The notes below the pieces were generated by a model. That model was not told the DNA's origin, ran no database searches, and worked only from the letters and a program-made list of their open reading frames with translations. Source: an uncultured Clostridia bacterium (GTDB lineage: Bacteria; Bacillota; Clostridia; Christensenellales; Borkfalkiaceae). Taken from it: a stretch of DNA of 64,000 nucleotides. Where the stretch lies: NCBI GenBank assembly GCA_947632195.1, contig CANROE010000007.1, forward strand, positions 1 to 64,000, read 5' to 3'. A program made the translations under genes and the position numbers. Shown here one piece after another: positions 1 to 12,747 of this stretch. The first letter of the stretch is position 1. Every line of letters starts with the position of its first letter.

Positions 1-41
1 GTTTGGCTTCCTCAAAGCTGATAGAGAAGCTCCAAAACGGC

Positions 42-6710: not shown

Positions 6711-6739
6711 TTGCAAATTATTTTTCGCCGTGGTAGAAT
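6711..6739 (+). promoter_or_regulatory. SigA-type promoter for RNA copy 1
   Basis: TTGCAA-17-TAGAAT. Confidence 0.7.
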
Positions 6740-6743
6740 GAAA

Positions 6744-6832
6744 TTGCGACACAACCGAATACTAACAGAGCGAAGATACAACGGCATCGGTGTATCCTTA
6801 TCTCTATGTTCTGTTAGGGTTTTGTGTCGCAA
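6744..6832 (+). ncRNA. candidate structured leader/sRNA, copy 1
   Basis: nested stems: TTGCGACACAA/TTGTGTCGCAA (11 bp), CTAACAGA/TCTGTTAG (8 bp), GATACA/TGTATC. Confidence 0.72.
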
Positions 6833-6853
6833 CAATTCGGGGATACTCGAAGC

Positions 6854-6885
6854 GGGCGCCTCGAATTGAGGCGTCCTTATTTTTG
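6854..6885 (+). terminator. intrinsic terminator after RNA copy 1
   Basis: GGGCGCCTC-gaatt-GAGGCGTCC then TTATTTTT. Confidence 0.8.
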
Positions 6886-6894
6886 TATAAAGGA

Positions 6895-7075
6895 AAGCGA
6901 AACCCGCCAACGGAACCCCCTCCTCGGGAGGGGGACTAAGGGGATGGGTGATGTTTCCAAATGTCATGTCGAGCGAAGGCGTAAGCTGTAGTCGAGACAT
7001 CTCCACCGCATTGTAATAAGGCGAGATTTCTCCACTTCGCTCGTGGAGCTCGCTTCGGTCGAAATGACAGATTCA
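6895..7075. repeat. dispersed repeats (C-rich hairpin plus a full-length repeat A) in the 5' region of the BspA gene
   Basis: CCCCCTCCTCGGGAGGGGG hairpin; TGTCATGTCGAG..GAGACATCTC..GAGATTTCTCC..TCGAAATGACA. Confidence 0.8.
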
Positions 7076-7130: not shown

Positions 7131-8441
7131 ATGAAACACAAATTTTTGGTAGTGCTCTTGGCGATCGTAGCGACGCTCTGTATGGCGTTCGGACTTTCGG
7201 CATGCGGCGAAGAGTCCGGAAAAGAGCCCGAAAAAGAGCAAGCCGACCTTTGGTCGATGGAACGCGTGTATGCCTCGGCGCAGGAGCTCGGGTTCAAAGG
7301 CACGCTCGAAGAACTCATCGCCATGTTCAAGGGCGAAAAGGGCGACCCCGGGCAGGACGGCAAAGACGGTAGGGACGGAATTGACGGGCAGGACGGCAAG
7401 GACGGTAAGGATGGAATTGACGGACAAGACGGACAGGACGGAAAAGACGGAATTGACGGACAAAACGGCATTGACGGGCTTGGCATTCAATCGCTCGAAA
7501 TAGATGAAAACGGGCACCTGAAAGTGACCCTCTCGGACGGTACGGTCAAAGACTTGGGCAAGATCACTGCGGAGAGCGAACCCCCCGCTGCGGAGGGCAC
7601 CGAAGGACTGCAATACCAAATACGCAAAGATGAAGAGGGCAACGAATATGCCGCCGTCATCGGGCTCGGTATGGCTTGGGACAGGGATATTGTGATCCCC
7701 TCCACCTTTCGCGGCTTGCCCGTGAAAGAAATCGGCCAATATGCATTTTACGGAAGTTATGATCCTCGCGTTTGGACTTTAACGAGCGTCTCAATTCCCG
7801 ACAGTGTGACAAAAATCGACAGTTGGGCGTTCCTTTGTTGTAGCGGGTTGACTTCGGTGACGATCGGCAGCGGCGTGACTTCGATCGTCAATGGCGCGTT
7901 TGGTTTTTGCAGTAAGCTGGCGGAAATAAACGTGGATCCCGACAATCAAACCTATCATGCACAAAATAATTGTTTGATCGAAACAGGGAGCAAAACTTTG
8001 GTTGTGGGTTGCAAGACAAGCATCATTCCAAATGACGGGGGCGTGACCGCGATCGGAAGTGAGGCGTTTCGGGGTTGTAGTGAATTGACTTCGATTGACA
8101 TTCCCGACAAAATAACCTCAATCGGAAATTATGCGTTTTATCATTGCTACGAATTGACTTCTGTAATCATTCCCGACAGCGTGACTTCAATCGGAGATTA
8201 TGCGTTCTTTAATTCGGGGTTGACTACAGTCACGATCGGCAGCGGCGTGACCTCGATCGGAGCAAATGCGTTTGTTGAATGTTGGCGTCTCCAAGAAGTT
8301 TATTTCAAAAACCCGAACGGGTGGAAAGCGTCGTACTATCCGGACATGTCGGACGCAGGAACTGTTTCGGGGCTTGAAGATCCCGCAACAGCGGCGGAAT
8401 ATTTGGGTTATTACGATTATTATTGGAAACGGGAAGATTGA
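7131..8441 (+). CDS. lipoprotein with collagen-like G-X-Y region and BspA-type leucine-rich repeats
   Basis: signal peptide with lipobox LSAC; GEKGDPGQDGKDGRDGIDG...; repeated TSIGDYAFxxCxxLTSVxIPDSV. Confidence 0.9.
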   Translation: MKHKFLVVLLAIVATLCMAFGLSACGEESGKEPEKEQADLWSMERVYASAQELGFKGTLEELIAMFKGEKGDPGQDGKDGRDGIDGQDGKDGKDGIDGQDGQDGKDGIDGQNGIDGLGIQSLEIDENGHLKVTLSDGTVKDLGKITAESEPPAAEGTEGLQYQIRKDEEGNEYAAVIGLGMAWDRDIVIPSTFRGLPVKEIGQYAFYGSYDPRVWTLTSVSIPDSVTKIDSWAFLCCSGLTSVTIGSGVTSIVNGAFGFCSKLAEINVDPDNQTYHAQNNCLIETGSKTLVVGCKTSIIPNDGGVTAIGSEAFRGCSELTSIDIPDKITSIGNYAFYHCYELTSVIIPDSVTSIGDYAFFNSGLTTVTIGSGVTSIGANAFVECWRLQEVYFKNPNGWKASYYPDMSDAGTVSGLEDPATAAEYLGYYDYYWKRED

Positions 8442-8454
8442 GCGGCGCACGCGG

Positions 8455-8680
8455 TTTCTTGCCCACCCCTCTTGGCGCCTCCTAAGGAGGAGCTGGCACC
8501 GTAGGTGACTGAGGTGGTGCAGAACAAAAGACACCACTCCCCCTATCCCCCCTCCCCTACCCCTCCCCCGCGCAAAGCGCGGGGGAGGGCAAAAGTAGTG
8601 ATGTGCGCGGGGGACAGCTGAATAGTAGAGATTTCTCCACTCCGCTCGCGTTGCTCGCTTCGGTCGAAATGACAGATAAT
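8455..8680. repeat. cluster of dispersed repeats (B-like, C-rich hairpin, half repeat A)
   Basis: GAGGAGCTGGCACCGTAGGTGACTGAGG; CCCCCGCGCAAAGCGCGGGGG; GAGATTTCTCCACTCCGCTCG..TCGAAATGACA. Confidence 0.75.
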
Positions 8681-10424: not shown

Positions 10425-10454
10425 TTGCAAAAATCAAAGTCGCTATGGTATAAT
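10425..10454 (+). promoter_or_regulatory. SigA-type promoter for RNA copy 2
   Basis: TTGCAA-18-TATAAT. Confidence 0.7.
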
Positions 10455-10460
10455 GGCTAT

Positions 10461-10557
10461 GCGTCTCAACAAAATAGGAAAAAATCGGATACAGCGGCTT
10501 AGTTGTATCCTAATTTCCTATGTATCCGGTATTGCCCATTTAGGGATGTTGAGACGC
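10461..10557 (+). ncRNA. candidate structured leader/sRNA, copy 2
   Basis: GCGTCTCAACA/TGTTGAGACGC (11 bp), ATAGGAAA/TTTCCTAT (8 bp), GGATACA/TGTATCC; same layout as copy 1 with different P1 and P2 sequences. Confidence 0.72.
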
Positions 10558-10581
10558 AAACCAACAGGGGTACTTATTTGC

Positions 10582-10612
10582 GGGCGTTCCCTTGTTTGGA
10601 ACGTCCTTATTT
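10582..10612 (+). terminator. intrinsic terminator after RNA copy 2
   Basis: GGGCGTTCC-cttgttt-GGAACGTCC then TTATTTTTT. Confidence 0.8.
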
Positions 10613-10642
10613 TTTGCTCGCGAAATAAAAGGAGACAAACTT

Positions 10643-12747
10643 ATGAAACACAAATTTTTGATCGTTTTTTTGGCGATCGCAGCGACCCTCTGCATGGCGT
10701 TCGGGTTAGTAGGTTGCGGAGAGGAACCCGAAAGAGAGCCCGAAAAAGAGCAAGCCGACCTTTGGTCGATGGAACGCGTGTATGCCTCGGCGCAAGAGCT
10801 CGGGTTCAAAGGCACGCTCGAAGAACTCATCGCAATGTTCAAGGGCGAAAAGGGCGACCCCGGTAAAGACGGCAAAGACGGAGAAAACGGCAAGGACGGC
10901 GCGCAGGGGCTCCAAGGTGAAAAGGGCGACCCCGGCAAAGACGGCAAAGACGGAGAAAACGGCAAGGACGGGCTCGGCATTGAATCGCTTGAAATAGATG
11001 AAAACGGTCACCTTGTGGTCACGCTTTCGGATGGCACCGTAAAAGATCTTGGAAAGGTGACCGCGGACGGTGCGGCTCCCGCCGAAGAGGGTACCGAGGG
11101 CTTACAATACCAAAAGCGCAAGGATGAAATGGGAAACGAATATGCCGCCGTCACGGGTCTCGGCACGGCGTGGGACACGGATATCGTGATTCCCTCCGTT
11201 TATCGGGGCTTGCCTGTCAAAGCGATCGGAGAATCGGCTTTCGACGCATCGTACGATCGAAGAGTTTCTTCTCTCACAAGTATTTCGATTCCACAAAACG
11301 TAATATCGATCGGAAACTATGCATTCGCGGGTTGCAGCGGGTTGACGGGCGCACTGAAACTTCCCGACAGCGTGATCTCGATCGGAAACGGTGTGTTCTC
11401 AGGTTGCAGCGGGTTGACTGAGATCAATATTCCCGAAAACGCGGTCTCGATCGGAAATGAAGCATTCCGCGGTTGTAGCAGATTGACGGGAGAACTGAAA
11501 ATCCCCGACAGTGTGATCTCGATCGGAGCGTATGCGTTTTCGGATTGCAACGGCTCGCTTTCGATCACCATCGGTAGCGGCATTACGGAAATCGGAGATT
11601 TTTCGTTCTATGATTGCGACGGGCTAACAAACATTTCCCTTCCCGACACCTTGACTGCGATCGGAGATTCTGCGTTCTATGATTGCGACAATTTGGCGGG
11701 GATCGCCATTCCCGAAAAGGTGACTGCGATCGGAACATTTGCGTTTTCGGATTGCAGCGCACTCGAACAGATCACGATCCCTCAAAACATGGCGACGATC
11801 GGGGATTCTACGTTCAAAGATTGCGGCGCGCTTACGACTGTAACTTGGAATGCAGAAAATTGCAAGACCGCATGGATAGACGGTCATCATGGTCCGATTT
11901 TCAACGGCTGTACCAATCTGAAAACACTTGTGCTTGGAAAAAGCGTAAAGATCATTTCGGAAGCCACGTTCTCGGGTTGCAGCGGGTTGACCGGTGAGTT
12001 GCAGATCCCGAACAATGTGATCTCGATCGAACCGTGGGCATTTGAGCTTTGCAACGGATTGACGTCTGTCACGATCGGAAGCGGCACAACCAAAATCGCA
12101 CAATATGTGTTCGTAGGTTGCAGCGGTTTGACTTCTGTCACAATCGGAAGTGGCGTGACCGAGATCTACAAGCAAGCATTCTCGGGTTGCAGTGCGCTTG
12201 AAAAAATTATTGTTGATGGCTCAAACCAAAATTTCAGCAGCCAAAACGGGATTTTGTATAACAAAAACAAAGACGAAATTTATTTGCTCCACCGATGATC
12301 AAAGGCGCCGTGGTTATCCCCGACAGCGTGACCGAAATCGGAGTACGCGCGTTCGTAGGTTGCAGCGCACTTGAACAGATCACGATCCCACAAAGCGTGA
12401 CTGTGATCGAAGATTCGGCGTTCGATGGTTGCAGCGCGCTTACAAGCGTGACCTTCGACGGTAAGAGCCGACTGACCAAGATCGGTAATTGGGCATTCCG
12501 CAGTTGCAGCGCGCTTGAACAGATCACGATCCCACAGAGCGTGACCCTGTTTGCGGTTGGGGTGTTTTCCGATTGCATAAGACTTCGCGAAGTGCATTTT
12601 GAAAACCCGAACGGTTGGTTTGTTTCTTGGTCTATTGACTTATCCCCAGGAGAGGGGCCCCTCACTTGGCTCGCGGACGCTTCGACCACGGCAAGCAATT
12701 TGAGATACGGAAGGTATAGCGAAGGAACTTTGTTCCGAAATGTTTGA
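10643..12747 (+). pseudogene. collagen-like/BspA-LRR lipoprotein split by a frameshift (ORFs 10643-12298 and 12295-12747)
   Basis: N-term nearly identical to the 7131 protein; LRR continues in the other frame directly after the stop (NKNKDEIYLLHR* / MIKGAVVIPDSVTEI). Confidence 0.8.

Follow-up and report, generated by a model that had tools for sequence, protein, structure and literature searches.

What kind of RNA, if any, is encoded by the stretch of DNA that precedes a collagen-like, BspA-type lipoprotein gene in an uncultured Clostridia bacterium, and does it control that gene? The stretch lies in the window, by which we mean the whole 64,000 nucleotides of DNA that were analysed. The original prediction had placed here a promoter, three nested stems (P1, P2, and P3), a terminator, and a complementarity between CAATTCG (6833–6839) and CGAATTG (6862–6868), and each of these was found at its position (Table 1). 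The terminator stem spans 6854–6876 and is followed by TTATTTTT at 6877–6884. The RNA from 6742 to 6890 had a computed fold energy of −60.1 kcal/mol (z = −7.5), which none of 200 shuffled sequences equalled. Within the window, a perfect 11-bp inverted repeat that encloses one of 8 bp is confined to this element (copy 1) and a second one (copy 2).

Table 1. Positions of the leader copies, their parts, and the genes that follow them in the window
Feature	Position	Strand	Remarks
Promoter of copy 1, sigma-A-type	6711–6739	+	TTGCAA 6711–6716, 17 nt, TAGAAT 6734–6739
P1 5′ arm	6744–6754	+	Predicted transcript start at base of arm; class-wide consensus TGCGNCACAA
J1/2 with conserved AATA	6755–6761	+	Candidate sensor part, on the basis of sequence conservation
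P2 5′ arm	6762–6769	+	
P3 5′ strand (strand 1)	6775–6780	+	Local P3 partner
P3 loop and 3′ strand (strand 2)	6783–6797	+	Pairs with strand 1 or linker; P3 3′ arm itself 6791–6796
P2 3′ arm	6810–6817	+	
P1 3′ arm	6822–6832	+	
Linker (strand 3), CAATTCGGGGATACTCGAAGC	6833–6853	+	Pairs with strand 2 or strand 4
Terminator 5′ arm and loop (strand 4)	6854–6868	+	Antiterminator: 6859–6868 with 6833–6842
Terminator 3′ arm (strand 5) and T-rich tail	6868–6884	+	
Gene downstream of copy 1	7131–8441	+	Lipoprotein with collagen repeats and BspA-type leucine-rich repeats
Promoter of copy 2	10425–10454	+	TTGCAA, 18 nt, TATAAT
Copy 2 of leader RNA	10458–10615	+	Plan as in copy 1; additional sequence between P2 and P1 3′ arms
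Gene downstream of copy 2	10643–12298	+	BspA-type lipoprotein; start codon 27 nt past element

Copies of the leader and their distribution

The source genome holds four copies of the leader, the two in the window and two on other contigs (C1 and C24). All four stand ahead of genes for predicted secreted proteins or lipoproteins: BspA-type/collagen lipoproteins in two cases, a lipoprotein bearing Listeria-Bacteroides repeats in another, and a secreted protein that matches no Pfam family in the last. Copy 1 is separated from its gene by 245 nt, and a genome-wide repeat sits in this gap. This short intergenic repeat, which contains CTTCGGTCGAAATGACA, is present at 7053–7069, between the leader and the gene, and again at 8658–8674; 82 occurrences were counted in the genome at ≤1 mismatch, compared with none for the reversed control pattern. 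At the end of the gene behind copy 2, a second frame with BspA-type repeats (12295–12747) starts at 12295, before the stop at 12298; a frameshift or an assembly error may have divided this gene in two.

The first covariance model was built from two copies and used to search 37 genomes of the genus and 24 genomes of other families. The RNA was present in 30 of the 37 genus genomes, where its copy number ranged up to 11; the other families gave only one weak match (E = 0.04). The restriction to one genus that this model suggested was rejected, as a second model (R2), built from 55 sequences, showed it to be a limit of the first. P2 was left out of R2 because its variable length prevents column alignment, and its pairing was judged by eye. 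With this second model, the leader was found in 95 of 397 genomes (36 of 142 genera) of the order sample and in 56 of 394 genomes (35 of 223 genera) of the class sample. The phylum sample of 400 genomes, which doubles as a negative control, yielded at E ≤ 1e-4 the source genome as the sole match and none outside the class. Exact-pattern scans did not find the leader in viral contigs, and a distant DNA search with a class-level copy gave no match in phage and plasmid records. Among the matches listed by pattern scan, the named records all came from uncultured Clostridia in the 'Lapin' MAG series. An origin in rabbit gut is taken from this name, and the listing says nothing about other hosts.

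Some members of the family have features of their own. Two near-identical leaders in L050 (3074–3214 and 4935–5075) lie 1.86 kb apart, each ahead of its own lipoprotein gene, which suggests that the pair arose by duplication of leader plus gene. The copies of L023, L028, L060, L062, L069, and L076 lie near contig ends. Repeated leader-gene units that interrupt assembly would give such positions, and the copy numbers per genome would then be lower bounds. L303, L311, L312, L125, and L126 have a CGCATTACATA-like segment that lies after P3 and before the P2 3′ arm. They possibly form a subclass, and in three of them the linker pairing is unusually long (−18 to −25 kcal/mol).

No Rfam family had been recognized in the original prediction, and the Rfam 15 search bore this out: neither the window nor any of sixteen class-level loci reached a family's gathering score, and permissive searches of the window and of distant members returned only scores under the family cut-offs. 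6S RNA, SRP RNA, and tmRNA likewise gave no Rfam covariance match. The leader thus belongs to no Rfam 15 family, which is not the same as being absent from the literature. No description of it was found there, with supplementary tables outside the scope of the search. Candidate RNAs from human microbiomes were described by Fremin and Bhatt 2021 (PMC8040213), and these resemble the present leader in being discovered by covariation ahead of genes in gut bacteria. Its main text mentions neither lipoprotein leaders nor pseudoknots; an overlap through its supplementary list is not excluded.

Competing pairings and covariation

Covariation was strong in P1. When all column pairs were ranked without bias, P1 took the first six places; pairs of the antiterminator, of the terminator, and of the helix between P3 and linker came next, mixed with some unpaired ones. 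Across 55 distinct sequences, 92.4% of the cells of P1, P3, and terminator were paired, compared with 39–53% in slid versions, and 141 cells were altered on both sides, compared with a shuffled mean of 43 (0 of 500 shuffles equalled it). This signal was carried by P1 and the terminator; P3 itself was not above its shuffles.

The 5′ part of the linker (CAATTCGGGG in copy 1) is complementary to the terminator 5′ arm and loop. Each linker was paired either with its own terminator or with swapped ones. In the genus, the own pairing reached −13.6 kcal/mol compared with −8.3 kcal/mol for swapped pairings, and 117 of 117 copies beat the swapped median. The corresponding values were −15.6 and −9.2 kcal/mol (59 of 59) in the other genera and families of the order, and −14.8 and −9.4 kcal/mol (36 of 36) in other lineages of the class; no permutation was equally good in the order or the class. 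Therefore, the claim that the terminator and antiterminator folds are mutually exclusive, originally drawn from one sequence, is backed by compensatory change in the genus, order, and class tiers.

A second exclusive pairing, which the original prediction had missed, joins P3 to the linker. In the genus, the P3′ sequence GTATCC is paired with the linker sequence GGATAC in 97.7% of cells and covaries with it, whereas its pairing with the local P3 partner is found in 77.9% of cells, with no excess over shuffles. In distant members, the P3/linker stretch covaries as a whole, for example TAAAAGCGTATGCCC with GGGCAATACGTTTTT. Own pairings of the P3 region with the linker were again stronger than swapped ones in the order (−16.1 compared with −11.5 kcal/mol, 58 of 59) and in the class (−15.9 compared with −11.0 kcal/mol, 35 of 36), with no permutation equally good in either. 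The difference was smaller in the genus (−17.1 compared with −15.7, 90 of 117), in which these strands hardly vary. For a longer helix that takes in the P3 loop (GGCAT with ATGC), support is moderate in the genus and clearer in the order and class, in which the loop changes along with the linker. Since the pairing of strands 2 and 3 (2:3) connects a hairpin enclosed by P1 with sequence beyond P1, it forms a pseudoknot. Taken together, the pairings 2:3 and 3:4 both covary at the three levels of genus, order, and class. The minimum-energy automatic split of linker and terminator failed where the predicted fold was the antiterminator, and fixed windows were used for the swap tests. The swap and shuffle tests are inflated by sequence relatedness; the three tiers nevertheless agree, and their switching strands have little sequence in common.

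The stretches conserved as sequence throughout the class are P1 (TGCGNCACAA), the AATA that follows it, and AACAAT after P1. A17, T18, and A19 of AATA are 85–100% conserved in the genus and class tiers, and A19 is at 66% in the order tier. Conservation is concentrated in P1 and AAUA, and sequence varies freely in P2 and the switching strands. From this we infer, without having shown it, that P1, the AAUA internal loop, and P2 may act as a riboswitch-like sensor, for which neither a ligand nor a protein partner is known. The same pattern would also be compatible with an RNA-binding protein that recognizes P1 and the AAUA loop and tips the strand exchange, as in LicT/SacY and PyrR systems, since a conserved helix sequence next to an internal loop suits a protein. 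This protein-dependent attenuation is a possibility that we hold only tentatively: the leader has no Rfam match to known protein-binding leaders, and the downstream genes are not of a single operon type with its own regulator.

Promoters, downstream genes, and reading frames

A promoter of the form TTGNNN-16..18-TANNNT was present near the element start in 179 of 192 distinct copies, compared with 9 of 192 shuffled ones. The spacer was 17 nt in 166 of the 192 copies, and the −10 box ended 3 or 4 nt ahead of the element in 171. With this near-fixed promoter position, transcription should begin at the base of P1, although no expression data are available. With an intrinsic terminator between promoter and gene, and a conserved antiterminator that excludes it, the element has the sequence features of an intrinsic-terminator attenuator leader, for which regulated read-through in cells would be predicted.

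The next start codon lies ≤50 nt past the element in 129 of 195 copies and ≤130 nt past it in 153 of 195; copy 1 of the window is an exception. The counts come from a simple ORF picker, with contig ends included, and about 40 of the 195 copies have no nearby start codon. They bear on whether the element is instead a stand-alone small RNA that merely happens to lie ahead of genes, an alternative that the original prediction had raised as an abundant sRNA. The element does have its own promoter and strong terminator, and about a fifth of the copies lack a start codon within 130 nt. Nevertheless, the close start codons in most copies make a plain sRNA improbable: the closest cases leave no room for another promoter, and the covarying antiterminator pairing would serve no purpose in such an RNA.

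Among the 132 downstream proteins scanned, 37 have BspA-type leucine-rich repeats, 14 a zinc ribbon, and 9 Listeria-Bacteroides repeats, and the rest are mixed. By a crude rule, 40 of 76 downstream proteins in the genus are lipoprotein-like, and for other genera and families the count is 12 of 43; for comparison, the rule accepts 5 of 52 when applied to the longest ORFs of the window, a stretch that contains leader genes as well. The downstream genes show a clear envelope bias in the genus; beyond the genus, this bias is weaker.

Attenuation through a translated leader peptide, as in trp leaders, would follow an identical strand logic. It is scarcely credible here, because there is no conserved reading frame among 212 copies, and ATG frames of ≥8 codons with a Shine-Dalgarno-like sequence are rarer (8 of 212) than on the reverse strand (37 of 212). 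A T-box was also judged unlikely, since the motif TGGNACC is absent from all 212 copies and no Rfam T-box match was obtained.

Proposed mechanism and relation to known systems

We consider it highly probable that the element acts as a 5′ leader RNA, regulating transcription of the following gene by strand exchange, with the P1/AAUA/P2 sensor being inferred and expression data lacking. The alternative pairings, their conservation, and the position ahead of genes are supported by comparison of sequences alone. The attenuator-like reading of the original prediction is upheld and extended; an Rfam match and a lack of covariation were both tested for, and neither occurred.

In the proposed mechanism, RNA polymerase would begin at the base of P1, and P1, P2, and the P3 hairpin would fold first. 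If the emerging linker pairs with the P3 loop and 3′ strand (2:3), the terminator (4:5) would form and halt transcription ahead of the ribosome-binding site. If the linker instead remains free until the terminator 5′ arm emerges, it would form the 3:4 antiterminator, and transcription would go on. Two sets of pairings are free of conflict, with 1:2 and 3:4 predicted to be the ON state and 2:3 and 4:5 the OFF state; this assignment follows from the intrinsic terminator being part of the latter set.

The computed energies in copy 1 were −7.0 kcal/mol for P3, −17.4 kcal/mol for 2:3 (without pseudoknot cost), −14.8 kcal/mol for the antiterminator, and −17.9 kcal/mol for the terminator. With helices of comparable strength, the fold could tip either way. 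This similarity would also suit an attenuator without any signal molecule, in which the balance of helices alone senses temperature, an ion, or the elongation rate, but we regard this as unlikely because it leaves the class-wide conservation of P1 and AAUA unexplained. Under strand exchange governed by a sensor, P1, the AAUA internal loop, and P2 would bind a diffusible signal that tips the balance, as inferred from the conservation there. The signal would most likely be a small molecule or, alternatively, a protein. Of the criteria for a riboswitch, that of a conserved folded domain coupled to an expression platform is fulfilled, as P1 and AAUA are conserved in sequence and the platform covaries. 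It is conceivable, though far from established, that the leader represents a riboswitch class absent from Rfam 15 and spread over several Clostridia lineages, with small-molecule sensing, pseudoknot strand exchange, and a regulon of surface lipoproteins and membrane proteins.

If the proposal is true, one unrecognized leader RNA, present in as many as 11 copies per genome, governs many surface-protein genes across much of the gut Clostridia, in uncultured bacteria for which few regulators are known. Because the element is defined, its ON and OFF folds are predicted with testable compensatory mutations, and its regulon is outlined, the search for the signal can start directly.

Several known systems share parts of this design. 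T-box leaders are likewise antitermination leaders common in Clostridia, but they differ from the present leader in preceding amino-acid genes. The trp and phe leader attenuators have the same chain of competing pairings (1:2, 2:3, 3:4, 4:5), and one class-level copy scored 32.9 bits with Phe_leader (RF01859), under its 55-bit cut-off. Unlike them, the leader described here has no leader peptide, precedes non-biosynthetic genes, and carries a P1-P2 folded domain in front. Riboswitches of Bacillota that attenuate transcription through intrinsic terminators, such as the purine and SAM-I classes, are similar in being 5′ leaders in which a folded domain comes first, antiterminator and terminator are exclusive, and the gene follows closely. 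In contrast to these, the present leader has no known ligand or Rfam match and switches through pairing of an apical hairpin with a linker outside P1, that is, through a pseudoknot. The c-di-GMP riboswitch families are in Rfam, yet do not match the leader; like it, they occur in Clostridia as multi-copy leaders and, in some species, stand ahead of surface-protein genes.
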